Positions 1,249 to 28,409 of a stretch of 33,513 bases of DNA are shown here, one piece after another (within the stretch, counting starts at the first letter, position 1; every line of letters begins with the position of its first letter). The notes beneath the pieces were generated by a model. The model was not told the origin of the DNA, made no database searches, and saw only the letters and a program-made list of their open reading frames with translations. The translations under genes were made by a program, and so were the position numbers. This DNA is from Methanobacteriota archaeon (lineage in GTDB: Archaea > Thermoplasmatota > Poseidoniia > Poseidoniales > Poseidoniaceae), in contig JABJMO010000052.1 of the NCBI GenBank assembly GCA_018659375.1, positions 1-33,513 on the forward strand, read 5' to 3'.

Positions 1249-2379
1249 ATGTTCATTGGTTCAATTGATTCTCACAGCCACGAAGGTGGTTTACTCGCCT
1301 CATTTACTGGTTCTTCACCAGCACTCGGTTCAATAATTGTTAGTTCTGATGATGGAACCTACATTGGTAAGATTGATGCTGTTTTAGGCGGTACTGAATC
1401 CCCTATCGCTCATATTGCCCATCTTGACCGTAAAATGGATGCCAGCCAATTTATCGGCATTGATGTCAAAATACGGCCAAAAGTAGAGCGCGAGGAGAGA
1501 TTTGATAGATCTCGCAGTGACCGAAACGACCGACGTCGTAATGATGACAGAGGCGGGAGAAGAGATGATAGAAGAGATTCTCGACGAGATGATAACAGAG
1601 ACTTCGGTAGAGACAATCGACGTGGCAATGATAGGGATAACCGTCACAGAGGAAATGACCGCGGAGATTCTCACGGAGACAATGATTGGGATTGTCCAAA
1701 ATGCAACAATTCAAACTTTGCTAGAAGAGTAGAGTGCAACAGATGTGGCGCTCCAAAGCCTGGTGGTGGAGACTCTAGCGACAGAAGAAACTCTCAGTAT
1801 GACTCTCGCCCGCCAAGGAGAGATGATCGTCAAAGACGAGATTCTCGAGATAGAAATAATAACAGATCAGAGCGGAAGACGTTTACTGACAATGATTGGG
1901 AATGTAAAAAGTGTAATAACTCTAATTTTTCGTTTAGAACTGAATGTAATCGGTGTGGAGAACCTAAGCCAGGTGGCGGAGGAAATAACAGAGACCGTGG
2001 ACCAAGAAGAGATAATCGGAGTAGCGGCAGAGACCGTGGGCCACGCAGAGACGACCATTCAACTAGAGATAGTCGTGGAAGCGACAGAGGTAGCGGCCAC
2101 GAAGAGAACGAGGACCACGCAGAGACGACCGTTCAAGTAGAGATAATCGTGGAAGCGACAGAAGTAGCGGGCCACGAAGAGAGCGTGGGCCAAGTAGAGA
2201 CAGTCGGGGAAGTGACAGAGACCGTGGACCAAGAAGAGAAGGAGGTGGTCGCGGAGAGCGAGACCCAAACGTTCGTCAATTCCGTCGTGCTAGAGGCAAA
2301 TCATCAGGGCATGCTCACAACAGAGGACCACAACCCCTTGATACCCGTCCGCTTAGAAGACATAGAGATGATTAAGTAA
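1249..2379 (+). CDS. gar1: Gar1-like H/ACA RNP domain fused to two RanBP2-type zinc fingers and RGG/DRR-rich tails (probable frameshift near 3' end)
   Basis: Residues about 10-82 resemble the Gar1 beta-barrel: a P-A-L-G turn, then G-T-Y-I-G-K-I-D-A-V-L-G-G matching the Gar1 I/V-G-K-V-x-D-V-F-G motif. Gar1 is the H/ACA RNP subunit that helps guide pseudouridylation of rRNA. Residues 83-145 are Arg/Asp/Asn/Gly-rich. Two RanBP2-type fingers follow: W147, C149, C152, N156, C163, C166 and W217, C219, C222, N226, C233, C236. Both fit W-x-C-x2-C-x3-N-x6-C-x2-C exactly, end in PKPGG, and are the type that binds single-stranded RNA. More RG/DRR repeats follow. Archaeal Gar1 is usually only about 75-100 residues. 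From about residue 283 the composition switches abruptly from R/G/D to E/V/T; reading frame 3 from base 2097 continues the RGG pattern to TAA at 2375, so the annotated C-terminus is probably wrong. An AAAGGATG element lies 9-16 bases before the ATG. The Gar1 call rests on motif resemblance; the fingers are certain by pattern. Confidence 0.75.
   Translation: MFIGSIDSHSHEGGLLASFTGSSPALGSIIVSSDDGTYIGKIDAVLGGTESPIAHIAHLDRKMDASQFIGIDVKIRPKVEREERFDRSRSDRNDRRRNDDRGGRRDDRRDSRRDDNRDFGRDNRRGNDRDNRHRGNDRGDSHGDNDWDCPKCNNSNFARRVECNRCGAPKPGGGDSSDRRNSQYDSRPPRRDDRQRRDSRDRNNNRSERKTFTDNDWECKKCNNSNFSFRTECNRCGEPKPGGGGNNRDRGPRRDNRSSGRDRGPRRDDHSTRDSRGSDRGSGHEENEDHAETTVQVEIIVEATEVAGHEESVGQVETVGEVTETVDQEEKEVVAESETQTFVNSVVLEANHQGMLTTEDHNPLIPVRLEDIEMIK
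2094..2097 (+). other. Apparent single-base deletion (GGG to GG) shifting the RGG tail out of frame
   Basis: The stretch tagcggccacgaagagaacg (2091-2110) is a diverged copy of tagcgggccacgaagagagcg (2165-2185), with one G fewer. Restoring a G at 2095-2096 keeps the Arg/Gly/Asp-rich, G-P-R-R-repeat reading through to TAA at 2373-2375, only four bases before the stop used by the uncorrected frame. It is either a sequencing or assembly error, a natural mutation, or less likely a programmed -1 shift. Confidence 0.7.
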
Positions 2380-2400: not shown

Positions 2401-3459
2401 ATGAGTGCTGAAGATCACTACCTTGATGCGATAGAAGCTCTTGATAATGGTAACAGAGAAGAATCTTTGATTGAAGCATACAAAGCAGTCAAACTAGATC
2501 CTGAACATGCTGATGCATGGCAGGTGATTTCTGACTCTCATTTGAACTCAAATGGACAGGCTGATAACCTAATTGATGCATCAAAATCGTTGAATGCGGT
2601 AAAGAAAATAGTAAATCTAGACCCTTCTAGAATTGATATGTGGGTAAGAGGAGGTAGATTACTCGCTGACGAATTAGGCTTGATGATTGATGCTCTTGAA
2701 TGGTGGCAAGAAGTTCGCCATCATGCCCCAGATGAAGTCACTCCGTTGATTGAACAGGCTACTATCATGGCTGATTTAGGGCTATATCAAGAGGGTAGAG
2801 AACGAATTGAGACTATATTAAACGAAAATATGGATGTAGCAACCAGCCAATACGGTAGAGTCCACCAATTGCTTGGATTATTCAATTCAGCGATACAACA
2901 AGACCAAAATCAGTATTTCAAGCCGTGGGAAAAGCGCCACCCTGGTTGGTTAGCAATCGAATCAAAAATGCGTAAGCCGCCGGTTTCGGAAACCTTCATT
3001 TTCATGTTAGTCACTGTGCCAATTCTATTTGGTGTTGTTATTTTGTCAAACATGTTGGCAGGAGAAGGTTTTACTGCTTTTTGTCTTACTTCCATAGTCA
3101 TCTTTGTTGCAGTGATCGCCGGTATGAGGTTTACCAAGAATATGTTCAGAAGCATTAACCGGCCCGCTTTCAATCTACTTAGGGCAATGAACTTCGAGTC
3201 TTCTACAGGGTATTCAATTATCTCTGAAGAAATTAAGACTTCGGTATTGTATATGTATATATTACAGCGCAAGCCTATTGCTTGGCAAGAGAGAATGCTA
3301 TTGATTGTTGAAGAAAGCACTCTACTACCTAAAAACTGGAAGTTGGAGTTGCCAGATTTTGAGTCACATCTAGACGAAATTGGTTATATTGAAGATGGTG
3401 ATGAACAAACACCATTCTGGGAAACTGGCGATGGCGCAGAGCCCCATGAAGAGGAATAA
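2401..3459 (+). CDS. TPR-domain membrane protein
   Basis: 352 residues. Residues about 1-165 form helical repeats of TPR type, for example E-A-Y-K-A-V-K-L-D-P-E-H-A-D-A-W followed by later K-I-V-N-L-D-P-S and E-V-R-H-H-A-P-D repeats. Two hydrophobic segments follow at about 200-222 and 225-246, then a soluble acidic C-terminal domain ending in PHEEE. TPRs usually mediate protein-protein contacts, so this may be a membrane-docked scaffold; the partner is unknown. The ATG lies 21 bases after the end of the gar1-like gene, and the two are probably co-transcribed. Its stop codon directly abuts the stop of the convergent S-adenosylhomocysteinase gene, with no base between them. Confidence 0.85.
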   Translation: MSAEDHYLDAIEALDNGNREESLIEAYKAVKLDPEHADAWQVISDSHLNSNGQADNLIDASKSLNAVKKIVNLDPSRIDMWVRGGRLLADELGLMIDALEWWQEVRHHAPDEVTPLIEQATIMADLGLYQEGRERIETILNENMDVATSQYGRVHQLLGLFNSAIQQDQNQYFKPWEKRHPGWLAIESKMRKPPVSETFIFMLVTVPILFGVVILSNMLAGEGFTAFCLTSIVIFVAVIAGMRFTKNMFRSINRPAFNLLRAMNFESSTGYSIISEEIKTSVLYMYILQRKPIAWQERMLLIVEESTLLPKNWKLELPDFESHLDEIGYIEDGDEQTPFWETGDGAEPHEEE

Positions 3460-4790: not shown

Positions 4791-7700
4791 TCATCCTTGC
4801 TGTTGAATGTATGCTGCTGCATATTGTTGTGCATATGCTGCGGCAGTCTGCTCATCATAACCTTGAGTGATGAACTGCTGGTAGTATTGTTGGTATGCAG
4901 CATCCATCGCAGGGTTGGTAGCAGCTGGTGCTGCTGCTTGAACGGCTTGTTGTTGACTGGCCCCACCTGTCAGTCCTGCTTGCGCAGCATATTGCGCAGC
5001 ATACGACCTTGCAGTATCTTCAGGGTATCCTTGAGCGATTAATTGTTGAACATATTGCTCGACAGGGTCTTGTTCTTGGAAAGCACCTGTTAGGCTGAAA
5101 TCCTTGTAATCTCCATCAATACCGTCTCCTCCGCTTCTTCTAAGGAACAACAATGTCAAGATGACGATTAAGACCAATACAATAGCACCAATACCAATGA
5201 ACATAATATTACTATCGGACTGAGCTCCATCGCCTCCATCATTAGATGATGGAGCGACCCATTCGCCGTTTTCTAAAGAGTACTCGCCATCCCAATCACA
5301 TTGACCGTTGATAAATACCCAATCACCTTCCGGGTCCGCTAGTATCACTTCATCTGGAACAGATACTCCACGACAGATTGGTAATGACAAAGTAATGGTA
5401 TTTGGATTGTATAATTGAACATAATCTGGATCGCTTAGAGAGAGTTGCTGTTCTGTAACCCAACGCTTGTCTGTATCTTTGGTAGGATCGAATTCGTAAA
5501 CTCTTATGTAAATTATGACATCTACTGGCTTGTCAGAGTGGAATCTGTCGATATCCAAACTCAAGTAAAATGTGTCACCTGTACCAACTGAGTTGTCTAG
5601 AACTGCTAATTCTTTTGCGCCAATGGCAGTTCCTAACACCTGTGGGTCAGTTTCGTCTAATAGGGATTCATTCCAGGTTATCTCCACGTATGTATCAGAC
5701 TCATCAGAACCTGTGGTAACAGTTCCTGAAAGGTTGTAGAATGAACTAGTGTAACCTTGTTGGTCACCCCAATTAGTGAAGTCAATAACCGGAGGTTCAT
5801 CGCCAAAGCCTTGTGGTTTGACATCGAAACAGAATTCCATGTCATCATCCCACTTACCGGATTTATCGTAAACCGTTAGTTTAATTTTGATCGGTTGGAT
5901 TGGTGATTCTGTATTAGGGTTGTAAGTTAGATTTCTGCCAGCGTATGATTCTCCATTCTGGTCAACACCATATCCACCAAATGTGTATTGCCAAACTCCC
6001 AAGCTTGCTTCATATTGGATGTAAGTATTGGCATTGACATTAATTGCTGCATCCCACGGCTTGTCAAACAGAACTTCCCATTCATACCTGTCAATTCCAT
6101 TACCTTCTAGCGCATCAGGGTCTGATGAATTAAAGGCATTGAAATCAATTGGTAGTTGGCCGCTTTCATCTAGAGTAATCTCATACTTAGGGTAATTATC
6201 TAGACTCGAACAGGTTCCGACATACTCGATATTGTCTGCATAACTGTCTTTCATAACCACATAAGCATCGGCAATTGGGTTAAACGCGTCAGCGTTTGCA
6301 TCATTGGTCTCAACAATCACAGATAACATCCTTGAGTGCCCGTTGTCGTCATGTAGCCAAAGAGTAATTGTCCATTGCTCTCCCTGTTTACAGTCGCCTT
6401 GGGTTCCAATAGACTTACAGAAGTCCATCACAGGTGAGGATTCAGTTTCGAACAATGGAGAGGTGTAATGGTCTATTTGACCTGGAGCCATGGTTCCTAA
6501 ATCCCAAGAAGTTGGTCCAGAAATCAGCCAATCAGTTTGCAAACTTACTTGTGCATTAGATTGGTAACTAAAGGTCAATTGAGCATTACTCTTCATGTAA
6601 ACTGTGGCATATCCGGCACCGAGTGCAGGGTCAGGAACTACACCATCAATCAAGATATCAGTACCGTCTCTCATTTCACCAAATGGGTTGGGGTAATCAT
6701 TTACTTGATATGAGATTACATTGCTAAGCAAAGCGAAATCGGAACTTGATGCGTTACCTGACTTTGCTTCTAGATCAATTGTGGAAACAATCATTCCACC
6801 TTGACCATAGCTACAAATCCCCAACAGAACATCTTCAATGTCTGTTGAATCACGAATAATTGGTTGGAAACTTGCCACATTTTGGTTGCCTGAGCAAATC
6901 TTCGGCACATCAGAGGTTGCTTCGCTACCAATGTCAAGTACTGAGTCGGCTACTGGAGTGAATACCTCAAACTTTTCACCGTCAATATTATTCATAATTG
7001 GGTGGAATTCATCGTATACTTCCATGTCTGCATAGGTAATCTCAGCACCATTGGTTTTGTCAGCGATTACTAGGCCAAGAGGTAATCTTGGTTCGACATT
7101 TGTTCCAAGACCGTAAGTTTGAGTTCCATGTGGAGCCAAGTGTGCTTGTATTGTACCACCACTGCTCATGAAATTGACCAAGACTTGCTTTCGGTCAACA
7201 TTACTGACCGTATCAGATATAGTCTTGTAGTATGCTTTTCCATCATCTTTGGCAGTATTGAAATCTTGCCATGGTAAGATAATCTTATCAAAGTTAGTAA
7301 ACCAATTAGTCTTGAAATAGTCATCCCAATCATTCATGCCAAATTGGGTGTAAGACATACCATTAGCCGCAATGTCTTCAATGATTCTAGAAGTACCGCT
7401 GGTCTTATCAGATAATATTGCTATATCGACATCATCGGCAAAGGTTGCATGGAAGTATACTGGGTCTCCGGATGGAGTCCCGTCATCTAGCTGGGCACGG
7501 TAACTAATGTTGTAGGTGTGTCCGTCTTGATACCCAGCCCATGGAGTGAACGATAGGTCAATTCTTTGGCCATTCAGCAAAGACTGGGCTGGCCCAGAAC
7601 TTACACTGTGAGCAAGAGAACTTGTGGTCTCGTCAAATACCTCCATGTAAAATACATAATCTCCTTCAAGCACTCCATTTGTTGCAGTCATCTCCCAGTT

Positions 7701-10700
7701 GTGAGTCAAAGAACTATCAATTGGTAGAACACAATTTAGCCTAACTTCATCTAAGCAAACTAATCTCTTTGGTTGACTCAAAACAATATCTACTGATTTA
7801 ACGTCAAATATAACGCGCTTGATATTATTTGCAGTTGATAATTCATCATTTCCGTACCACTTGGTACCAACTGTAGTATTATCGAATATAGTCTCTACTT
7901 CAATCATGTATACTCCGGAAACGAAATCGTGCTCAGCAATTAGATCTGTCGAAGAATCTTCAGCATCTACGGAGCTTCTACTTATTGTGTATGAGTTATC
8001 CTCAACGAAGGTAAATTCTTTCAAAGTGATATTGTTTATTCCAACACCTTTGAAACCATCATTTATGCCATTTCTTCCGTCATCATCTGAAAAGAAGTCA
8101 AAGTTCAAGTCTACCGTAGAGTCTGCTAGTGAGATACATTGTGTAGCCCATTCACTAGAATCTGGAGAAGTTGTGTTCAGGACATACAAATGTGTCAAAT
8201 CAAGAGTTGTGGTTTTGACCAACCTATCGGAATTAAAGAATACGTTCCAATTACCGCTAAGTCCGTCTGTGGTTCTTGAATCGCCAATGTATTCAATTTC
8301 CTCAAAGTCAATTGGATTAGTTTCGTTAACTATTCCATTTCCGTCTTCATCTATTTGGCAGGTTCCGTCCTCGTTGTAATCATTCCATTGCCCGTAAACA
8401 ATAGCAGTATTATCAGTCGAATCCTTGGTGAAGTCAACCGTCACCGCCATGTAATCACTGGGTTCGATATTACCTTGCGAGTCTACTTCAAAGAAGGTAT
8501 CAGCATAATACTCAAACGACAGAGAAACGAAATCGCTTTCTAAGTCTTCTAGGTCGATATCAGTAATAGTCATGGTTTCATTTTCCCATGCGTCGCCGTA
8601 TCCAAGTGTTGCTGTCTGGCATGGGTGGCCAAACCAGTATGAATTGCTGTTGAACACTAAATCAGACGGGCAATCCAAGGTGTCGTTGTATGTTGTACCC
8701 TTTGGATTGTTACTTTGGGTATATCTAGTTCCATCTGTGGAGTTGTCGAAGGTGATGATACAATCAGAACCTGGATTTCCACATTGTACTGTATCAGGAT
8801 CGGCAGTAAAGACGGTTGCTGTGACATCAAAGTCAACTATTGTGTTACCATAGTTGTTGGTGGCAGCAGAAATCGGATAAGTTCCTTGCGCATAGAGTTG
8901 CCCAGGTTCGAAATAATCTATCGATTCAAGTGCTGGGTCATACAAATTAAACGGCGTCACATACCCAACAATTTCATCATTGAGAACCTGTTCATCCCAA
9001 CCATTATTGGATAATGTTGCCGATATACGGTAAGTAGTATCGTTCAAAAAGTCGGCCTGCAGACTTGCAATGTATTCTTGACCAGGACCCAAATTATTCA
9101 GTTGGATTTGAGTTTGTTGATTTTGCACATTCGGGAAGAATGCAGTATTCTGCTTGAAGATGGTAAGATTATCAAAAGCAAATCCATCATTCCCGGTCCA
9201 TGTAGATTCATTTTCGTCTGAGATTGAACCCTCAAAACCAGTTCTAAATCTGAAACGCAAATCAACAGTCTCTCCAGCCCATGGGCTTAAATCGAAGGTT
9301 CCTAGTCCTTCATCGGTGAAATTATTCCAGGCGTAAAAGGTATTGAATGATTGAATTCCATAGTAGTAAAGACCTTCTGCATATCCTCCATAGGCATTTT
9401 CTTTGATTACTCTGTCAGTGTCAAAACCGCCCCACATAGAGGTACGTGACCAGCATGCTCCTTCGATGTAAGCTGTGACTGGGCAACTGATAGTAGACCA
9501 TCCAGTCTCTTCGCTACCAACTTCAATCATTGCTAAGTCGTCCCAAACATCACCAACTACGAACCCGTTGGTATCAGCACTTCCAAGCGCACCAAATCCG
9601 AGGTCTTGGAATAATTCAACACTCATGAAAGCACGGTCTGAACCGGTCAAATCAACATCTCTAAGCACCATTGCTTCATCCCAATTGGCTCCATAGCCTG
9701 TCCATTCTCCACCGGTACTGTTGGTTTTGGTTTCACCAGACCACATGAAGTGGGTTGGGTTAAGATAATTGGCAGAGTAATCTGCTTGCGATTCATCAGG
9801 ATCGGTACCAGACCCGCTAGATGGGGTTGTTTGTTCGTTCCAGTGGTGATTTCCATCAACATAATCAATGTAATCCCAAGTACATCCTGCGCCGCATGCT
9901 CCGACATTTTCAGGGGTATCCCAATCATTAGCATACACGGTTTGATTGGTTGAATTAAGTTCATCTACGACCTTTAGTTCAACATCTAGAGTTGCACTTT
10001 GACCGTTTAGGACATTCATACCAGTATTGGTCACTGTCACGTTTATGTCTCGAAGACCTTCACCGACAACACCGAATGAACGGTCTACTGGAGAAATCTC
10101 AATTCCTGAAACTGACAAGTCTTGGCTATCCATCTCGATAACTGAAATTGTATCATATTGACCATCCCAGCCAAAGTTATCTCTCCAGCCACCAAATCTC
10201 CAGTTCTTGTGTGCAACAACTATGTCTGGCGCAGAATTAGGGCCTCCGGCCAACTGGCCTACTTCAGCTGTGTGCGGTCTTCGCCCAGCAGCATATGATA
10301 GAGGACTTAGGTGCCCTCCACTACCGTCTGAAAGGGTAACTTGAATCGAAGTTGGGTAATTAAGGAAGAAATTGGATGACGTACCTCCAGCAGAGTCAGT
10401 TGAGTTTTGCTGATAAGCAAGAGTCGGGTTGATAAAATCTGGTTGCTGGTCTCCGTTTAAGTCAGCAACAGTCAACGTCCATGAAATGTATGGTCCAAAA
10501 TAAGCCTTTTGTGGAGCGGCCCATGTACCTGAAGTTGATGATGTGACATAGGTCACATTCTCGATGTCAGCATCATTGAGCGCTAATACGTCTGCTGTGC
10601 CATCACCGTCTAGATCAGCAACTGCCAAATCTGATGATGTTTCGGTTTGCATATTAATTACGTGTTCGCCAACACCTGGAGTAGTACTGAAGGTGTAAGT

Positions 10701-11588
10701 TAGTGGGAAAGTGTTGGTTTGACAATTGAATTCAACAATCGAAACGTTATCGTTATGACCCGGATTAGTTGATTGACCCGTAGCATAGTCTAGGCCTTCG
10801 CTTCTTAGCAGCCACATATCGCTGTCGAAACAGGTTCCGCCGCCACCAAGTCCACCGCCAACTTGTGATTCGCCCCAATCACCGGCAGTAAATGCACGGT
10901 AGGTATTTTGTTGGGCCGGACCTAAGTTAGTGATGATGCCTTGTGTGTTTGAAGTAATTGGGCCAAGATAGGTAACAACTCTTTGAGTGGTAATATCTGC
11001 TTGTAGGTCTAAGACCATAACGTCATCATTACCATCGTCGTTTAGGTCAGCGACTTCTAGGTCCCAAGCCCAAAAGTGAGTGAACCTTGCTCCAATAGAC
11101 CAAGTTTTCTCGTTACATCCACCATTTTCGATGATGGTTACGTTACCTGGCTCACCAGCTGGAGAACCATCTTCATTGGTTTTGAACGGATTGTTTCTTT
11201 GGAAGATAACGATGTCGTCTACACCATCACCAGTGAAGTCGCCAACTTCAACGAATTGTACATTGGAAAATTCATCCCAATCTGCATTCCTGTCTTGGTT
11301 AGCAGTAACCCAGATATCTTGCCGCTCGGAAAAATCCCCATTACCATCATTCCACAAAACTGTGATTGTATGGGTTCCATCTGTGGCAATCGCGATATCA
11401 TTGTGATTATCACAATTAAAATCACCAATAGCTACATCGTGAGGATCACGATTGGTGGTATATGTTCTTGCTTGAGATGCACTTGCTGTGGTTGCTAAAG
11501 CGGCAGTTGTTGATAGTACCATAAGTAAGCAAAGCAGAATACTTCTTGCGCGGGCCTTGAAGAGATTGTCTTGGGAAAACATCGTCAT
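4791..11588 (-). CDS. Giant FG-GAP-repeat surface protein with single membrane anchor and Q/A-rich cytoplasmic tail
   Basis: About 2265 residues. The first ATG is at 11588, with a GTG one codon earlier and another ATG at 11582. A signal peptide of about 38 residues ends near S-A-S-Q-A. FG-GAP/VCBS-type calcium-binding repeats occur at about 50-400, with motifs such as V-A-D-L-D-G-D-G-T-A-D-V and V-G-D-F-T-G-D-G-V-D-D. A CARDB-like region (about 495-545) and beta-rich modules with W-A-G-E-T-V-D-L-R-F-R-F and F-D-N-L-T-I (about 760-810) follow. A class-I-amidotransferase-like or ThuA-like alpha/beta module begins near V-D-I-A-I-L-S-D (about 1385-1635), then PKD-like beta modules. One membrane helix at about 2129-2150 is followed by RR and a 115-residue tail with two copies of a Y-x2-Q-x3-x-Q-G-Y-x3-T-A motif. 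Probably extracellular binding or adhesion; no ligand can be assigned. Transcribed toward ahcY. Confidence 0.9.
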   Translation of the reverse strand: MTMFSQDNLFKARARSILLCLLMVLSTTAALATTASASQARTYTTNRDPHDVAIGDFNCDNHNDIAIATDGTHTITVLWNDGNGDFSERQDIWVTANQDRNADWDEFSNVQFVEVGDFTGDGVDDIVIFQRNNPFKTNEDGSPAGEPGNVTIIENGGCNEKTWSIGARFTHFWAWDLEVADLNDDGNDDVMVLDLQADITTQRVVTYLGPITSNTQGIITNLGPAQQNTYRAFTAGDWGESQVGGGLGGGGTCFDSDMWLLRSEGLDYATGQSTNPGHNDNVSIVEFNCQTNTFPLTYTFSTTPGVGEHVINMQTETSSDLAVADLDGDGTADVLALNDADIENVTYVTSSTSGTWAAPQKAYFGPYISWTLTVADLNGDQQPDFINPTLAYQQNSTDSAGGTSSNFFLNYPTSIQVTLSDGSGGHLSPLSYAAGRRPHTAEVGQLAGGPNSAPDIVVAHKNWRFGGWRDNFGWDGQYDTISVIEMDSQDLSVSGIEISPVDRSFGVVGEGLRDINVTVTNTGMNVLNGQSATLDVELKVVDELNSTNQTVYANDWDTPENVGACGAGCTWDYIDYVDGNHHWNEQTTPSSGSGTDPDESQADYSANYLNPTHFMWSGETKTNSTGGEWTGYGANWDEAMVLRDVDLTGSDRAFMSVELFQDLGFGALGSADTNGFVVGDVWDDLAMIEVGSEETGWSTISCPVTAYIEGACWSRTSMWGGFDTDRVIKENAYGGYAEGLYYYGIQSFNTFYAWNNFTDEGLGTFDLSPWAGETVDLRFRFRTGFEGSISDENESTWTGNDGFAFDNLTIFKQNTAFFPNVQNQQTQIQLNNLGPGQEYIASLQADFLNDTTYRISATLSNNGWDEQVLNDEIVGYVTPFNLYDPALESIDYFEPGQLYAQGTYPISAATNNYGNTIVDFDVTATVFTADPDTVQCGNPGSDCIITFDNSTDGTRYTQSNNPKGTTYNDTLDCPSDLVFNSNSYWFGHPCQTATLGYGDAWENETMTITDIDLEDLESDFVSLSFEYYADTFFEVDSQGNIEPSDYMAVTVDFTKDSTDNTAIVYGQWNDYNEDGTCQIDEDGNGIVNETNPIDFEEIEYIGDSRTTDGLSGNWNVFFNSDRLVKTTTLDLTHLYVLNTTSPDSSEWATQCISLADSTVDLNFDFFSDDDGRNGINDGFKGVGINNITLKEFTFVEDNSYTISRSSVDAEDSSTDLIAEHDFVSGVYMIEVETIFDNTTVGTKWYGNDELSTANNIKRVIFDVKSVDIVLSQPKRLVCLDEVRLNCVLPIDSSLTHNWEMTATNGVLEGDYVFYMEVFDETTSSLAHSVSSGPAQSLLNGQRIDLSFTPWAGYQDGHTYNISYRAQLDDGTPSGDPVYFHATFADDVDIAILSDKTSGTSRIIEDIAANGMSYTQFGMNDWDDYFKTNWFTNFDKIILPWQDFNTAKDDGKAYYKTISDTVSNVDRKQVLVNFMSSGGTIQAHLAPHGTQTYGLGTNVEPRLPLGLVIADKTNGAEITYADMEVYDEFHPIMNNIDGEKFEVFTPVADSVLDIGSEATSDVPKICSGNQNVASFQPIIRDSTDIEDVLLGICSYGQGGMIVSTIDLEAKSGNASSSDFALLSNVISYQVNDYPNPFGEMRDGTDILIDGVVPDPALGAGYATVYMKSNAQLTFSYQSNAQVSLQTDWLISGPTSWDLGTMAPGQIDHYTSPLFETESSPVMDFCKSIGTQGDCKQGEQWTITLWLHDDNGHSRMLSVIVETNDANADAFNPIADAYVVMKDSYADNIEYVGTCSSLDNYPKYEITLDESGQLPIDFNAFNSSDPDALEGNGIDRYEWEVLFDKPWDAAINVNANTYIQYEASLGVWQYTFGGYGVDQNGESYAGRNLTYNPNTESPIQPIKIKLTVYDKSGKWDDDMEFCFDVKPQGFGDEPPVIDFTNWGDQQGYTSSFYNLSGTVTTGSDESDTYVEITWNESLLDETDPQVLGTAIGAKELAVLDNSVGTGDTFYLSLDIDRFHSDKPVDVIIYIRVYEFDPTKDTDKRWVTEQQLSLSDPDYVQLYNPNTITLSLPICRGVSVPDEVILADPEGDWVFINGQCDWDGEYSLENGEWVAPSSNDGGDGAQSDSNIMFIGIGAIVLVLIVILTLLFLRRSGGDGIDGDYKDFSLTGAFQEQDPVEQYVQQLIAQGYPEDTARSYAAQYAAQAGLTGGASQQQAVQAAAPAATNPAMDAAYQQYYQQFITQGYDEQTAAAYAQQYAAAYIQQQG

Positions 11589-11614
11589 CACTTGTTAAGC
11601 CATATTAACTACCA

Positions 11615-20643: not shown

Positions 20644-23600
20644 ATGAAGAAAATATTAGCAGTGCTTTTTGCCTGTTCTATTGTTATGGCCGGATGTATG
20701 GATTTAACTGACGAAGATATTGACGCAATCGTCGACGCAATTGTTGAAATCCCTGGCTGTAATGCCGACGAAACTGCCTATAATTATGATGTCAATGCAA
20801 CAAATAACAATGCATGTTTGACTGAAATGATGCTAAAAGAGTCCATTTCGGAATTCATTACAACAGTTGGATCACAACCTGCCGCAGACAAAACAATTGG
20901 AATTATGCAAGAAGGTTCAGACGGAGCAGGTGGTGACTGGGAATCTGTTGAGGTTACTAGCCCTTCAGGATTATACAAAAGTATGGATGTAGATATGGGC
21001 GTATTCGCTTGGTCACAATCTGAACTAATCACTGCTGCTGCAGATGGCACTACGCTGATACAGGTGGATTGGGATGGAAATGAAATGTTGATGAACAGCG
21101 CAGTAGAATATAATTCATTGGCTACATCATTGAATGGCAGTAACATGGACGATGATGGCATGGATATAGATATGGGTATGGACGGTATGGAAATGCCTAG
21201 CGCTGAGATACCAGAAGATTTTGACCCTTCACAGGCATTATATGAAGCAGGATTGAGTACAGACAATGGCTACTCATTCTCTACAACGATGGAAGATGAA
21301 ATGGACAATTCAATGACTATGACCTTCACACTCGGTATGGATTTCTTAGTTGATTCCGTGACTATGATAGAAACCACGGATGGACAAACTTCAATTTCAA
21401 CTATTACCATGATGGATGAGCAAACTTCGCTGAATTACCTAAATATTAATCCTAACTTGCCTTACGAGGCATTACCATTTACTCTATCACCTATGGATGG
21501 TATGGATGATGGAGACGGCGATGATGGACAGGGCAACTCAGAAATCAACGCAGCTCTTACCGATAATTGGGCAAGCAGTCTAAATGATTATTCAACTCCT
21601 GAATTTTCAATTTATACTGGTTTTGAAAATGTAAATACAGTTCATTTTGACCTCTATGACATGGATGGAAATTCGATAACATCAATGACTATCCAGCCTA
21701 CAGAATTCACAGACATGGGTGATGGCTATATGATCTACTACGTAGACATAAACCACTTGTTAACTGATGTAGGATGCTACACTCTTATAGCGGCTGTTAT
21801 CACCAACGATGACGTCGAGATACAGTGGGTTCGTGAAGATATCTGTAATTATGGTGATGACAATGATCCAGGAGAGGATGAAGTCTTTGTTTGTGACAAC
21901 GGTAATGAAATCCCTGCAGACTATGTCAATGACGGGGACAATGATTGCGGTGACGGGTCTGATGAATATGATTATGAAGAACAGTTTGTCTTTGAATGCC
22001 TATACATTACCGTTAACGACAACCTAGTCTATGATAGTGAGGGTATATTTGACAAAGAATCTTCATGGGATGAAACTGGGCTTGACGATTCGATGTGCTA
22101 TACTGAAGTAGAAAACCCAGATGATTACCAAGTAGTAGACAATGGAATCAACAATCTACCAAGTAACTTTTCAGCCTGGGATGATGATGAAGAGGGGGAC
22201 CCCGAAAAAATGTCTATTGGAGATGATAATTACATTTACCTAATTGAAGCAGAAAACCCTGATGACTGTGATGGCATTTATGACCAATCTACCGATGAAT
22301 GTACAAACCCAACTGGAGTCATGATTTCCGAAACCAACGAACAGATAATGACATGGACAATGACTTATGAATCTAGTTTCAACTGTCTAGATGGTGAACA
22401 AATCATGCACGAATATGCCAACGACGGAAACGATGATTGTGATGATGGAACCGATGAGCCAAGTTATCAAGACGGGTACGAAACTTCGTATTATGAGTGT
22501 TATGATGGCAGCTATATCTTGATATCTCAAGTAAATGACGGAATTGAAGACTGTCAAACCAGCGGTGAGGATGAAACAGGAATCATCGAGATAAATATCA
22601 CTGTATTATATCAATTCAACCCAGATACTGGTAGCGGATTGATAGTAGCAATCCAATCTGATGATCATGACGACGAAGATGAAGGTCCCGATGACCACGG
22701 CCATGATGATGAACCAATGTTCACCTGTACAAATGGTGATGAGATTCCGGTGTTCTTAGTAAACAACGGAGAAACCGAATGTGATGGCTCTGATGAGCAA
22801 CAATACGACAGCGAGGGCAATGAGATAAACTCTTTCACTTGCATGGATGGTAGTCAAGTTTGGATTTATCAGGTTAACGATGGTATCCAAGATTGTCCAG
22901 ATGGAGATGATGAATCAATGGATGACGATTATGACCTCGTTACCCCGTCAGAACTCTTATCGATTACAGACACTGACGAAAGTGGTACAATGAGTCTTGA
23001 TGAATTCAATGCCACTTTTGGTGAGGAAATGGATGTAAATGATCCAACATTCGCCGAGATATTTGCCGATAACGATTATGATAATTCGGGGGACCTAGAT
23101 ATCGAAGAACTTGAAGGGTTTATTTATGAATTAGATGATTACGTAGAAAATGGCGATGATGACGAAAATTTGCTATTTGAGGCTGATACCGACGGAAGCG
23201 AAGGCATGAGTTTCGCAGAATTTGAAGTAGTGTTTAGCGACGGTGCTGGCGATGAAATTTCACAAGATATGATTTCTGACCTACAAGAAATCTTCAACAA
23301 TAGTGATTTGGATGATTCAGGCGAATTAGAACTGGATGAAATGGAACAGTTTGTGACAGACGTCGATGATTACATGATGTCCCTAGAAGATGGAGAGGAA
23401 ATGAATGGTGCGGAAGCCCGAGATGGGCATGATGACAACGGTAATGATGGAATAGATGATTCTGGAGCTCCTACAGCAGATGAACTAATCAATATGACAG
23501 ATACTGATGATAGTGGAACAATGAGCTTTGATGAATTCATTGCATTCATGAATTCTCCAGACCCTGATGGTGGAGGGGAAGATGATGAGTCATTGCCACA

Positions 23601-24342
23601 ATCTATGGTCGACGAAATCAATGCCATATTCGATAACAATGATGCCGATCAGTCTGGTGATTTAGACCTCGATGAACTAGACCAATTTATTCTTGACATA
23701 GATGAGTACTTCATATCAATAGAAAGCGGTGATGGTGAAATGTTTACTTGTGACAATGGTGACGAAGTCCCTGCAGACTACGTCGATGACGGGGACAACG
23801 ACTGTGGCGACTGGTCTGACGAGCCAAACCATAACGATAACGGCGATGATGGAATGGACGATGGACATGATGACAACGGTAATGATGGACACAACGACCA
23901 TGGTGAGCATGGCAGTATGTTTGACTGGATGATTAGCAACTCACACGACATGCCTATGGAAGGTTCATTTAGCGACTATTCAATTGTTCTAGCAATGTGT
24001 ACAATGGATGGAAGTGATAGCTCTGATGACATGATGGGTATGGGAGAATCATCAACTATGGACTGTGAAGATGATTTAATGAAGGTCTCTGTTACTGATG
24101 CAATGACTCTAGATGCTGTTGTAATGTTCCATGATGCTGATATGTCAGGTACTATTTCTGACGGTGACATGGTTCACATTAGCCCAGATGTTGATGTTGA
24201 TGGCGACTGGAATATGGTTAGACTATATTCAACATCTGCTGACGCTTACTCTGATGAGAACCCAATGCAAACTCCTGGTTTCTCAAGCATGATTGGAATA
24301 GTTGCGTTACTTGGTGCTGCTTTACTGACTCGTAGAGACTGA
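20644..24342 (+). CDS. Acidic calcium-binding lipoprotein with LDL-receptor-A-like repeats, EF-hands and PGF-CTERM-like tail
   Basis: 1232 residues, rich in Asp/Glu/Gly/Asn. M-K-K then a hydrophobic core and V-M-A-G-C make a lipobox with lipidation site C18. Residues about 37-58 carry a G-C-N-x-D-E-T-A-Y-N-Y-D-x-N-A-T motif closed by a Cys, known from secreted proteins of marine bacteria. Six LDLa-like repeats of form F-x-C-x2-G-x2-I/V ... N-D-G-x2-D-C-x-D-G-S-D-E lie near 413, 579, 616, 693, 731 and 1034, each keeping two cysteines rather than six. Six EF-hand loops, as three pairs, lie at about 775, 807, 846, 886, 951 and 996 (D-T-D-x-S-G-T-M-S-x-D-E-F and D-N-D-x-D-x-S-G-D-L-D). The C-terminus has P1211-G-F, a hydrophobic segment and RRD, matching the archaeosortase PGF-CTERM signal. 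Probably an extracellular calcium-dependent binding protein; the ligand is unknown. Confidence 0.92.
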   Translation: MKKILAVLFACSIVMAGCMDLTDEDIDAIVDAIVEIPGCNADETAYNYDVNATNNNACLTEMMLKESISEFITTVGSQPAADKTIGIMQEGSDGAGGDWESVEVTSPSGLYKSMDVDMGVFAWSQSELITAAADGTTLIQVDWDGNEMLMNSAVEYNSLATSLNGSNMDDDGMDIDMGMDGMEMPSAEIPEDFDPSQALYEAGLSTDNGYSFSTTMEDEMDNSMTMTFTLGMDFLVDSVTMIETTDGQTSISTITMMDEQTSLNYLNINPNLPYEALPFTLSPMDGMDDGDGDDGQGNSEINAALTDNWASSLNDYSTPEFSIYTGFENVNTVHFDLYDMDGNSITSMTIQPTEFTDMGDGYMIYYVDINHLLTDVGCYTLIAAVITNDDVEIQWVREDICNYGDDNDPGEDEVFVCDNGNEIPADYVNDGDNDCGDGSDEYDYEEQFVFECLYITVNDNLVYDSEGIFDKESSWDETGLDDSMCYTEVENPDDYQVVDNGINNLPSNFSAWDDDEEGDPEKMSIGDDNYIYLIEAENPDDCDGIYDQSTDECTNPTGVMISETNEQIMTWTMTYESSFNCLDGEQIMHEYANDGNDDCDDGTDEPSYQDGYETSYYECYDGSYILISQVNDGIEDCQTSGEDETGIIEINITVLYQFNPDTGSGLIVAIQSDDHDDEDEGPDDHGHDDEPMFTCTNGDEIPVFLVNNGETECDGSDEQQYDSEGNEINSFTCMDGSQVWIYQVNDGIQDCPDGDDESMDDDYDLVTPSELLSITDTDESGTMSLDEFNATFGEEMDVNDPTFAEIFADNDYDNSGDLDIEELEGFIYELDDYVENGDDDENLLFEADTDGSEGMSFAEFEVVFSDGAGDEISQDMISDLQEIFNNSDLDDSGELELDEMEQFVTDVDDYMMSLEDGEEMNGAEARDGHDDNGNDGIDDSGAPTADELINMTDTDDSGTMSFDEFIAFMNSPDPDGGGEDDESLPQSMVDEINAIFDNNDADQSGDLDLDELDQFILDIDEYFISIESGDGEMFTCDNGDEVPADYVDDGDNDCGDWSDEPNHNDNGDDGMDDGHDDNGNDGHNDHGEHGSMFDWMISNSHDMPMEGSFSDYSIVLAMCTMDGSDSSDDMMGMGESSTMDCEDDLMKVSVTDAMTLDAVVMFHDADMSGTISDGDMVHISPDVDVDGDWNMVRLYSTSADAYSDENPMQTPGFSSMIGIVALLGAALLTRRD

Positions 24343-26234: not shown

Positions 26235-28409
26235 TCACTCTTCTTCCGAGGATTCTGGGACAAACGGAGTGAAAATCCCACGCTCCTCTAAGATATCACA
26301 AGGCCCGGGCAGTACTGCTAGTATTTCATCAGTGGAAATCCCAGTATTCTTGTAAATCCTGTTAGCCAATCGGTCTTTCTTGGAAATCCCAGAACTTAAG
26401 ATTGCATACCTCGAGCAAATTGACAAGATTAACTCGGGAGTACCGCTCATCAATAGTGGCACGCCATTTATCGCCACTATACCAATACCAACTTTAACGT
26501 CTAAATCCCTAAACCATTGTCGTTGACCACGAACAATAAATGCTCCTTTACCAACATACTCGCCGGTTTGTGCGGTCTTGGAAACTTGGGCTGGCTTTAC
26601 GGCAAATACTGTCCCGTGACCTCCGCCACTGGACCATGCCCGACTCCAACACAAAGCAAGAGTTGCTGCCTCGATTAATTTATCATCGTTAATTCTCTCG
26701 TCACCCAATTTGTCGACTAATTTGTAAGTGGGAATATCTTTGGGAATATTGGCCGGTGGATTTTCATCGATGACAAAACCTTGAGTTGCCCTGAGGCTGC
26801 AACTTGGGGCGCCATGGATATCAGCGTGGAGATACATGTCAGAGCCGGAGAGATGCTTCTTGACAATCGCATCATTGCCCTTGGCATCTTTACCACCAAC
26901 CAGTAAATGACCACCTGTAGTCATTGACCAACGATGGTTTTCAAACCATAATCGTTTACTGCGTTTTACTTTACTTAATCGGCCAGTTTCTTTGGCTTTG
27001 ACCTCTTTCTTTAGGGCCCGTTTAAGTTGTATATTGGTTTCTTCTAATGCTTCAACTGCGCCTTTGGTCTTGGCTTTTTGCCTGTTTGCTGTAGTGAAGA
27101 AATACTGAGCATTTTGGTGAACAGTATCATCTAGGCGAAGTTGTGCTTGCAGGCCTTTAGGCTCACCATTATCATCAGGTAAAATACTGATGAAGGTTCG
27201 CTCAGCTCCATTCATAGAAACAATCCATGGAATTTGTTTGGCCATTTTTTGAGTATCTTTCCAACCATTAGTCTCAACTGCTTGTTTTATTTGCGAAAGC
27301 AAACTTTCAACATGACTCCAATTGTTTTGGATGGTATGGCCGATCAACTGTTGTTTCTCAATTTTTTTCGTAAATCCTGATAGGGCTTTCTCTTGTTGCG
27401 CTTTACGACGTTCTAGTTTCTCAACTTCTGTTGAGAACCCACGACCTGGTGACGCAATGTCCAACTTCTCTGCTTCTCGGCGGGCAAGTGCGCCAGCGTC
27501 ATGCGGTCCACGCCAAGCATCGACTGCAGCACACAATGTCGCAAACTCCATTCTGGGCTTACCGTCATGGGCAGGAAGTAAGGTTGGAGATGCTTCATTA
27601 GCATATTGTTCAAGAAATTTATCTCGCTTAACATCATCTGTTTGCTCATCAGATAAAACCTGTAGATCAGCGCTACTTTGTTCCTTATCTGGTTTGAGGA
27701 TAAGATAGCCTTTGGCATCTGTTGTCAGACTAGCGAGTAAGGTTTGCAATGCTTGGTGAATTTTACCTACATCTACCTCAGCAGTGGCTGAATTTGCGGT
27801 GATTCCGGCTAATTCACATACTGCATTAGCATGAGTTCCGCCTAAGTTTGCTTTACCACCCAAAGTTGCCACTAAATCACGGTCTGAATTTTCAAACATG
27901 TCTTTTAGAGCAGTTTCGTCTAAATCGTGTGGGTCTAAAGCAGCAGGTGGAGGTTGGTACTCAACTCCTTTCTTGAGAATACGTCCTGAATACTTGGCGT
28001 GAGTCAAGGGCTGAATGATAATTCCATCTTGGTCAACAAGAATTACGTTACCCTCCCTAAATACCTCAACATAAAGATGCATTTGACCATACTTGGTGTC
28101 AAAGTCAAGTGCTAGCACCCTATCAAAACCCAATTGCCTTACCGCAGTCATTCGGGCATTCTTCAGGAATTTCCGCAATACCATAGCAAATGGTGGGGGC
28201 GTCATTGGCATAGGACGGTCACGAGTTGAGGTGTAAACTCTAGAGCCTCTTACGATTACTAAATCAAATTGGTTACTTTCTTTTGGATTGATACGTAAGA
28301 CGATTTGTTCATAATGCGGCATGTATGATTTCTTGACATAAGCACCAGCAAATTGGCTTAACTCGCCAACAATTGCTCGAAGGTCAAATCCGCTCATGTT
28401 AGCCTTCAT
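26235..28409 (-). CDS. rqcH: NEMF/Rqc2/RqcH-family ribosome quality control protein (NFACT)
   Basis: 724 residues. The NFACT-N domain opens the protein with F-D9-L-R-A and carries G-F-D96-R97-V-L-A-L-D, the Asp and Asp-Arg positions that in Rqc2/RqcH are needed to recruit tRNA for C-terminal tailing. A helical/HhH region, a long coiled coil (about 330-500, with K-x2-K-A-K-T-K-G-A-V-E-A-L-E-E-T) and the NFACT-R domain follow: W-F-E-N-H-R-W-S-M-T-T-G-G-H-L-L-V-G-G-K and A-D-I-H-G-A-P-S. The family binds 60S/50S subunits carrying stalled nascent chains and adds Ala or Ala/Thr tails. A GAGG Shine-Dalgarno lies seven bases before the ATG at 28409. It is the last gene of the minus-strand operon, 42 bases after the quinone-oxidoreductase-like gene. 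The coiled coil and the older name (fibronectin-binding A) do not imply surface location. Confidence 0.93.
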   Translation of the reverse strand: MKANMSGFDLRAIVGELSQFAGAYVKKSYMPHYEQIVLRINPKESNQFDLVIVRGSRVYTSTRDRPMPMTPPPFAMVLRKFLKNARMTAVRQLGFDRVLALDFDTKYGQMHLYVEVFREGNVILVDQDGIIIQPLTHAKYSGRILKKGVEYQPPPAALDPHDLDETALKDMFENSDRDLVATLGGKANLGGTHANAVCELAGITANSATAEVDVGKIHQALQTLLASLTTDAKGYLILKPDKEQSSADLQVLSDEQTDDVKRDKFLEQYANEASPTLLPAHDGKPRMEFATLCAAVDAWRGPHDAGALARREAEKLDIASPGRGFSTEVEKLERRKAQQEKALSGFTKKIEKQQLIGHTIQNNWSHVESLLSQIKQAVETNGWKDTQKMAKQIPWIVSMNGAERTFISILPDDNGEPKGLQAQLRLDDTVHQNAQYFFTTANRQKAKTKGAVEALEETNIQLKRALKKEVKAKETGRLSKVKRSKRLWFENHRWSMTTGGHLLVGGKDAKGNDAIVKKHLSGSDMYLHADIHGAPSCSLRATQGFVIDENPPANIPKDIPTYKLVDKLGDERINDDKLIEAATLALCWSRAWSSGGGHGTVFAVKPAQVSKTAQTGEYVGKGAFIVRGQRQWFRDLDVKVGIGIVAINGVPLLMSGTPELILSICSRYAILSSGISKKDRLANRIYKNTGISTDEILAVLPGPCDILEERGIFTPFVPESSEEE

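Follow-up and report, generated by a model that had tools for sequence, protein, structure and literature searches.

A divergent Gar1-type domain with RanBP2-type zinc fingers and an arginine-rich tail in the archaeal order Poseidoniales

The window, i.e., the whole stretch of 33,513 bases of DNA that was analyzed, contains an open reading frame (ORF) of 376 aa at positions 1249–2379 (+). By sequence, its product is a Gar1-type domain combined with two RanBP2-type zinc fingers and an Arg-rich tail. The Poseidoniales protein would be the Gar1 of the H/ACA ribonucleoprotein (RNP), with a tail that adds grip on the substrate or the guide RNA; the probability of this reading is estimated at roughly 0.68.

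Domain Organization and Genomic Setting

The window begins with the first base of contig 32; the genome, from a member of the Poseidoniales (Marine Group II), consists of 80 contigs with 1.9 Mb and is 90.65% complete. The divergent Gar1-type domain, for which homology predicts a beta-barrel fold, covers residues 1–85 (1249–1503, +) and is followed by a low-complexity linker rich in Arg, Asp and Asn (residues 86–145; 1504–1683, +). RanBP2-type zinc finger 1 has a ZRANB2-like ARR core and spans residues 146–172 (1684–1764, +). It is separated by an Arg/Asp-rich linker (1765–1893, +) from RanBP2-type zinc finger 2, which has a FUS-like SFR core (residues 216–242; 1894–1974, +). An Arg/Gly/Asp-rich tail, in which the reading frame is still shared with relatives (1975–2096, +), precedes the remainder of the ORF (2097–2379, +), where the frame differs from that of close relatives, whose tails stay Arg/Gly-rich.

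Upstream of the gene lies the C-terminal part of a protein of ~650 aa, which is truncated by the contig start (37–1227, +), and downstream a TPR-like protein is encoded (2401–3459, +). For the comparison with relatives, 80 named loci were used, the best among 90 relatives retrieved with one peptide pattern containing HEGG, members without HEGG being missing from the set. The order ~650-aa gene, gar1, TPR-like gene was found in most of the 17 loci (of 80) that were laid out, and in both families of the Poseidoniales. Homology of the neighbors was confirmed for the upstream gene of L060 and L104 and for the downstream gene of L104. No Cbf5 or Nop10 gene was seen next to gar1 among the neighbors scanned.

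An ORF artefact was rejected, since the relatives, the gene order and purifying selection speak against it. A viral origin was likewise rejected, as no relative was present in one scan of viral contigs. The Rfam scan of the window revealed one tRNA only and no H/ACA guide RNA match within the window.

Three other genes of the window were noted. A probable archaeal surface protein of 1,232 aa (20644–24342, +) combines LDL-receptor class A repeats with EF-hands and a PGF-CTERM motif, which is an animal-like set of domains. A 2,266-aa protein with FG-GAP repeats (4791–11591, −) is probably a surface protein as well. The gene at 26235–28409 (−) is an NFACT gene of the Rqc2/NEMF-like kind.

The N-Terminal Domain

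The window protein matched the Pfam family Gar1 (PF04410) with 16.2 bits (E = 0.009), which is below the cut-off of 29.3 bits, and it remained far under the NCBIfam Gar1 cut-offs, too. When four proteins of the family were compared with NCBIfam, three matched Gar1 models alone, weakly, and L078 matched nothing. Every Poseidoniales protein among the listed PF04410 matches falls under the Pfam cut-off.

For profile comparisons, three alignments were built. A1 contains 20 N-domains from the two families and has 14 invariant columns. A2 comprises 66 of the 80 loci and the window, giving 67 rows with 13 invariant columns, and A3 contains 25 of 30 canonical Gar1 loci of other Thermoplasmatota. HEGG is present in the 80 named loci by construction, because the search pattern contained it; in A1, whose rows were found without that pattern, two of 20 lack it.

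The hhalign comparison of the Poseidoniales N-domains with the 25 canonical Gar1 proteins of A3 resulted in a probability of 96.8 and an E-value of 2.9e-10 over 73 columns with 19% identity. The profile-profile score was 56.4, whereas 200 column shuffles reached 19.2 at best and the reversed profile scored 13.1. Scanned singly, 63 of the 67 aligned members matched Pfam Gar1 at an E-value of up to 1 (best 4.8e-5), and the next most frequent Pfam family was found in 8 of the 67. In the PDB, the A3 profile finds the P. furiosus Gar1 (2hvy) at an E-value of 2.4e-17, and the Poseidoniales profile A1 finds P. furiosus Gar1 at 0.35, on rank two behind an unrelated protein. A Gar1 search of the host genome yielded the N-domain with an E-value of 0.003, followed at 0.24 by a match inside a 931-aa frame.

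By its sequence, the N-domain is a divergent Gar1. The preliminary description had made this call by motif, and it is now backed by the shuffle-controlled profile comparison, by the Pfam matches of most members and by the host genome, which contains no other convincing gar1 match. A separate canonical gar1 gene, which would have spoken against the call, was sought and not found, although an overlooked second copy is possible as the genome is 90.65% complete. With archaeal Gar1 as known from P. furiosus (PDB 2hvy/2ey4; PF04410), the protein shares homology to the canonical relatives over the 73 profile columns and the position as single match in a genome with Cbf5, Nop10 and L7Ae-family genes. 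It differs from archaeal Gar1 in its long, mostly Arg-rich tail, in its 0 to 4 fingers and in the lack of the FGPV motif.

When N-domain and fingers were compared in 14 pairs of relatives, most comparisons gave a dN well below dS. Exceptions are finger 2 of the pair window/L059 (0 synonymous and 2 nonsynonymous changes) and the N-domain of L107/L115 (0 and 1, respectively). For finger 2 of L078/L080, 12 nonsynonymous changes were counted (dN 0.24, dS 1.19), a number that is possibly due to the pairing of non-orthologous fingers.

Zinc Fingers and RNA-Reading Residues

The Pfam family RanBP (PF00641) was identified in two stretches of the window protein with an E-value of 1.9e-18. The two fingers score 47.2 and 34.3 bits (cut-off 27) and are the only RanBP matches above the cut-off in the host genome. 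Both fit the pattern W-x-C-x2-C-x3-N-x6-C-x2-C followed by PKPGG, as reported for two perfect fingers in the preliminary description. A chance origin is unlikely, because no other match of this genome exceeds the cut-off and because relatives have fingers at the equivalent position. The description had also pointed to HMM searches for Gar1 and zf-RanBP; the zf-RanBP part holds over the cut-off, while the Gar1 match stays under the curated one. Pfam revealed no other convincing domain in the Poseidoniales Gar1 proteins.

In the PDB, the best match of both fingers is ZRANB2 finger 2 (2k1p/3g9y; E-values 5.2e-7 and 1e-6), followed by ZNF265 and FUS. As described in the literature, U3 is read by N14 and N24, W17 stacks and D4 is important for affinity, and the fingers of ZRANB2, EWS and FUS bind GGU or GGG (PMC6384913). 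The first Cys spacing given there is four residues, two more than here, and the register used is our own mapping, in which N12 corresponds to N14, the aromatic residue 15 to W17, R18 to position 20 and N22 to N24.

The finger logo is based on 67 distinct sequences out of 103 strict fingers, the pattern itself fixing the W, the four Cys and one Asn. D4, an aromatic residue at position 15 (F or Y) and R18 were found in all 67 distinct strict fingers, N12 and N22 in 66 of the 67 each. The Arg at position 18 (20 in the published numbering) corresponds to a residue with a contact role. Both fingers of the window protein keep D4, the first N, the aromatic residue and the last N. Excluded from the residue count were 29 variant fingers, in which the second Cys spacing is C-x4-C. 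Such variants occur in L093, L096, L099, L100, L102, L108 and L111; in the 12 that were read, K replaces R18, and the D, the first N and also the aromatic residue are retained.

According to this comparison, the residues by which ZRANB2 and FUS read GGU RNA are conserved in most Poseidoniales Gar1 fingers, and RNA binding by these fingers can be predicted. The proteins resemble ZRANB2, FUS/EWS/TAF15 and RBM5/RBM10 in the finger, in its residues for RNA reading (Asp, Asn, aromatic, Arg and Asn) and in its embedding in Arg-rich low complexity. Unlike these proteins they are archaeal, their fingers are fused to a Gar1 domain and up to four fingers are present.

RanBP2-type fingers of the Nup153 type bind Ran. 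They have the Cys4 RanBP2 scaffold in common with the Poseidoniales fingers, but an assignment to this type was rejected, since the Asp, the aromatic residue and the last Asn are replaced in the Nup153 sequence and all three are kept here.

Composition and Frame of the Tail

Outside the fingers, the tail of the window protein up to residue 281 (163 residues) contains 1 RGG, 8 RG, 3 GR, 14 RD and 13 DR. Aromatic residues are few, with 1 Y and 3 F in 163. The tail is best described as a mixed-charge stretch of Arg and Asp, not as an RGG box. The term RGG tails, which had been applied to this protein, is better suited to other members of the family: 8 to 29 RGG were counted across L073, L078, L080, L097 and L126, with 29 in L073, 21 in L080 and 20 in L097. 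The highest R+G content was 58% (L138). Poor tails with 14–21% R+G were found in the finger-bearing L096, L099, L100, L110, L117, L120 and L136.

Compared to all four aligned loci of close relatives, which represent two sequence types (L007/L060 and L008/L059), the window is one base short near 2090–2100. The missing base puts residues ~283 to 376, i.e., the last ~94 residues, out of frame relative to the intact copies, and the C-terminus reads EDIEMIK in the window and RRHRDD in the intact relatives. It may be a real mutation or an assembly error; the N-domain and the fingers are unaffected by it. A good number of the 80 loci (L059–L138) run off their contig inside gar1, which makes the gene a frequent contig-break point, probably because of its repeats.

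With eukaryotic Gar1 and its GAR/RGG tails, the Poseidoniales protein shares the combination of a Gar1 domain with a low-complexity Arg/Gly-rich region. In contrast to eukaryotic Gar1, the tail is only C-terminal and contains RanBP2 fingers, and in the window protein it is Arg/Asp-rich. That GAR tails are a genome-wide fashion was considered and rejected, as the fibrillarin of the same genome is without a GAR region.

Distribution and History

The N-domain was found in 52 of 59 genomes, the host genome included, and in 238 of the class's 292 genomes, of which all except 7 contain a single match. The two Poseidoniales families correspond to Poseidoniaceae and Thalassarchaeaceae, as derived from some of the loci. 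The combination of Gar1 domain, fingers and tail, which the preliminary description had proposed to look for in related archaea, is present in both. A sequence query of 49 relative loci matched 45 of them, and 4 gave nothing.

Fingers were counted in 54 of the 80 named loci, the other 26 running off a contig or containing N. With the looser Cys4 pattern, at least one finger was detected in 45 of the 54 complete genes: 12 have one, 19 two, 13 three and one four fingers. The strict pattern was identified in 35 of the 54. Since nine complete members have no finger, the fingers seem to be dispensable in some lineages.

In a search of the phylum, PF00641 matched in 129 of 391 genomes at an E-value of 1e-4, and 105 genomes exceeded the cut-off. 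Among the 129 genomes, 109 belong to the two Poseidoniales families and 20 to others; the strongest listed match of these 20 is a 36-aa frame in G526, the only one of the 20 examined. None of 14 control genomes matched PF00641 at 1e-4. PF04410 matched in 228 of the 391 genomes at 0.01, 62 of which exceeded the cut-off. The PF04410 matches listed for other families are mostly frames of about 70–140 aa, and in eight Poseidoniales genomes (G117, G104, G137, G134, G213, G136, G068 and G091) the Gar1 match was identified as this gene by its coordinates. Fingers were absent from all of the 30 best canonical Gar1 loci of other Thermoplasmatota, including six of the sister family f3, which may be Marine Group III.

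The tree was calculated from 71 of the 80 N-domains and is based on a short domain with few columns and a midpoint root. On this tree, the 10 fingerless rows need 2 changes, compared to a mean of 9.6 after shuffling (none of 500 as low). Nine of the 10 form one starred clade (96/85), which is nested among finger-bearing rows. The simplest reading would be that the fingers are old in the Poseidoniales and were later lost, the Arg-rich tail being retained in those rows. The likeness to the GAR tails of eukaryotes is probably convergent, because the 30 canonical Thermoplasmatota loci examined are fingerless and their frames mostly short.

H/ACA Machinery and the Cbf5 Thumb Loop

The host genome contains one Cbf5/TruB-type gene, one Nop10 gene over the cut-off and two L7Ae-family genes, so that the partners Cbf5 and Nop10, which the preliminary description had suggested to look for elsewhere in the genome, are both present. 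Cbf5/TruB was found in 56 of the 59 genomes, the host genome included.

The motif FGP(V/I) is present in 24 of the 25 canonical rows of A3, compared to none of the 67 Poseidoniales rows of A2. Within FGPV-x2-P, the F position is occupied by L or I in all 67 Poseidoniales rows, and the final P is kept in 52 of them. The six Gar1 loci of the sister family keep FGPV. As the motif is missing from all 67 rows, the Cbf5 face of Gar1 may be altered or lost.

In the thumb loop of Cbf5, the residue after AVK is V or I in all 24 Poseidoniales genomes read (12 best-scoring and 12 hand-picked loci). It is R or K in all 26 of the remaining sequences that the pattern matched, among them three of three genomes of the sister family; the pattern missed 8 of 30 loci of one set and 3 of 20 of another. 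V149, which is critical for catalysis, is kept in the Cbf5 sequences read. One Poseidoniales genome carries an extra Cbf5-like gene (L276; G106:C15) with an ordinary SAVKR thumb loop, which is a foreign contig or a paralogue.

The residue after AVK is R151 in the Cbf5 studied, where R151G, tested without Gar1, lowered the activity and did not abolish it; substrate loading and unloading were little changed by single point mutations (PMC4551948). These findings argue against the idea that this residue has a large effect by itself. Since the changes of FGPV and of the residue after AVK fall on one branch, they count as one event, and a causal link between them cannot be proved from the coincidence.

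Proposed Function and Alternatives

Gar1 is described as binding the catalytic domain of Cbf5 without contact to the guide RNA and as switching the thumb loop between closed and open (PMC7991803; PMC4551948). The Poseidoniales Gar1 domain would dock on the catalytic domain of Cbf5 and handle the thumb loop, as Gar1 does elsewhere. Tail and fingers would add contacts to single-stranded RNA, either of the rRNA substrate or of the guide RNA, with a preference of the fingers for GG(U/N), and may in this way raise RNA capture or tune product release. The GAR tails of Gar1 in yeast have been assigned such a task; there, removal of the RGG tails altered turnover in a hairpin-dependent manner, from which the authors deduce substrate contact (PMC8096250).

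The N-domain could also derive from Gar1 and have left the H/ACA particle; the protein would then bind single-stranded RNA on its own or act as a chaperone, and Cbf5 would work without Gar1. The loss of FGPV in 67 of 67 rows and the likewise changed thumb loop of Cbf5 fit this explanation, as does the viability of T. kodakarensis after deletion of gar1 (PMC6138745). It is nevertheless unlikely in view of the single match in all but 7 of 238 genomes, a spread close to that of Cbf5 (52 compared to 56 of 59 genomes), the purifying selection on the N-domain and the restriction of the FGPV F position to L or I. Less likely still is a main role of tail and fingers in scaffolding or condensing RNPs into a nucleolus-like body, with substrate handling left aside and the reading of RNA sequence secondary. 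Such a role would suit the low-complexity Arg/Gly/Asp tails with up to 58% R+G (L138), their persistence where fingers were lost and the self-association of the GAR domains of eukaryotic fibrillarin (PMC9957100), but the RNA-reading residues of the strict fingers are nearly invariant, the fibrillarin of the genome has no GAR region and the window tail is poor in aromatic residues.

It is very improbable that the N-domain is another small beta-barrel that resembles Gar1 without being homologous to it. The matches of the window protein under the curated cut-offs and the weak PDB profile match would agree with such a domain; the shuffle-controlled profile match, the lack of any other Gar1 match in the genome and the rank of Gar1 as by far the top Pfam family of the 67 members (63 compared to 8) are against it. 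A Gar1 of the H/ACA RNP with an RNA-gripping tail is the reading we prefer. A wider version joins all changes and is offered tentatively, with more doubt than confidence. The H/ACA enzyme would have been rebuilt on the Poseidoniales branch, losing the Arg next to AVK in Cbf5 and the FGPV of Gar1 and gaining an Arg-rich arm with GGU-reading fingers, so that the grip on RNA passed partly from Cbf5 to Gar1. The sequence-reading arm, together with the guide RNA, might then steer pseudouridylation or else a new function as chaperone of pre-rRNA, which would make the particle an independent archaeal counterpart of the eukaryotic GAR-tailed snoRNP.

In two publications, archaeal Gar1 is described as being without GAR regions (PMC7991803) and RGG tails are treated as specific for eukaryotes (PMC8096250). 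No published description of the Gar1-finger-tail architecture of the Poseidoniales was found in the open-licence literature. With the proteins described here, an archaeal order appears to have a tailed Gar1, Arg-rich in most members, with fingers best matched by human RNA-binding proteins. The layout recalls RNA-binding proteins of animals and yeast, and it likely reflects convergence rather than inheritance. The Poseidoniales would thus offer a small natural system in which the contribution of such tails to a guide-RNA enzyme can be studied, with the natural fingerless members as ready controls.
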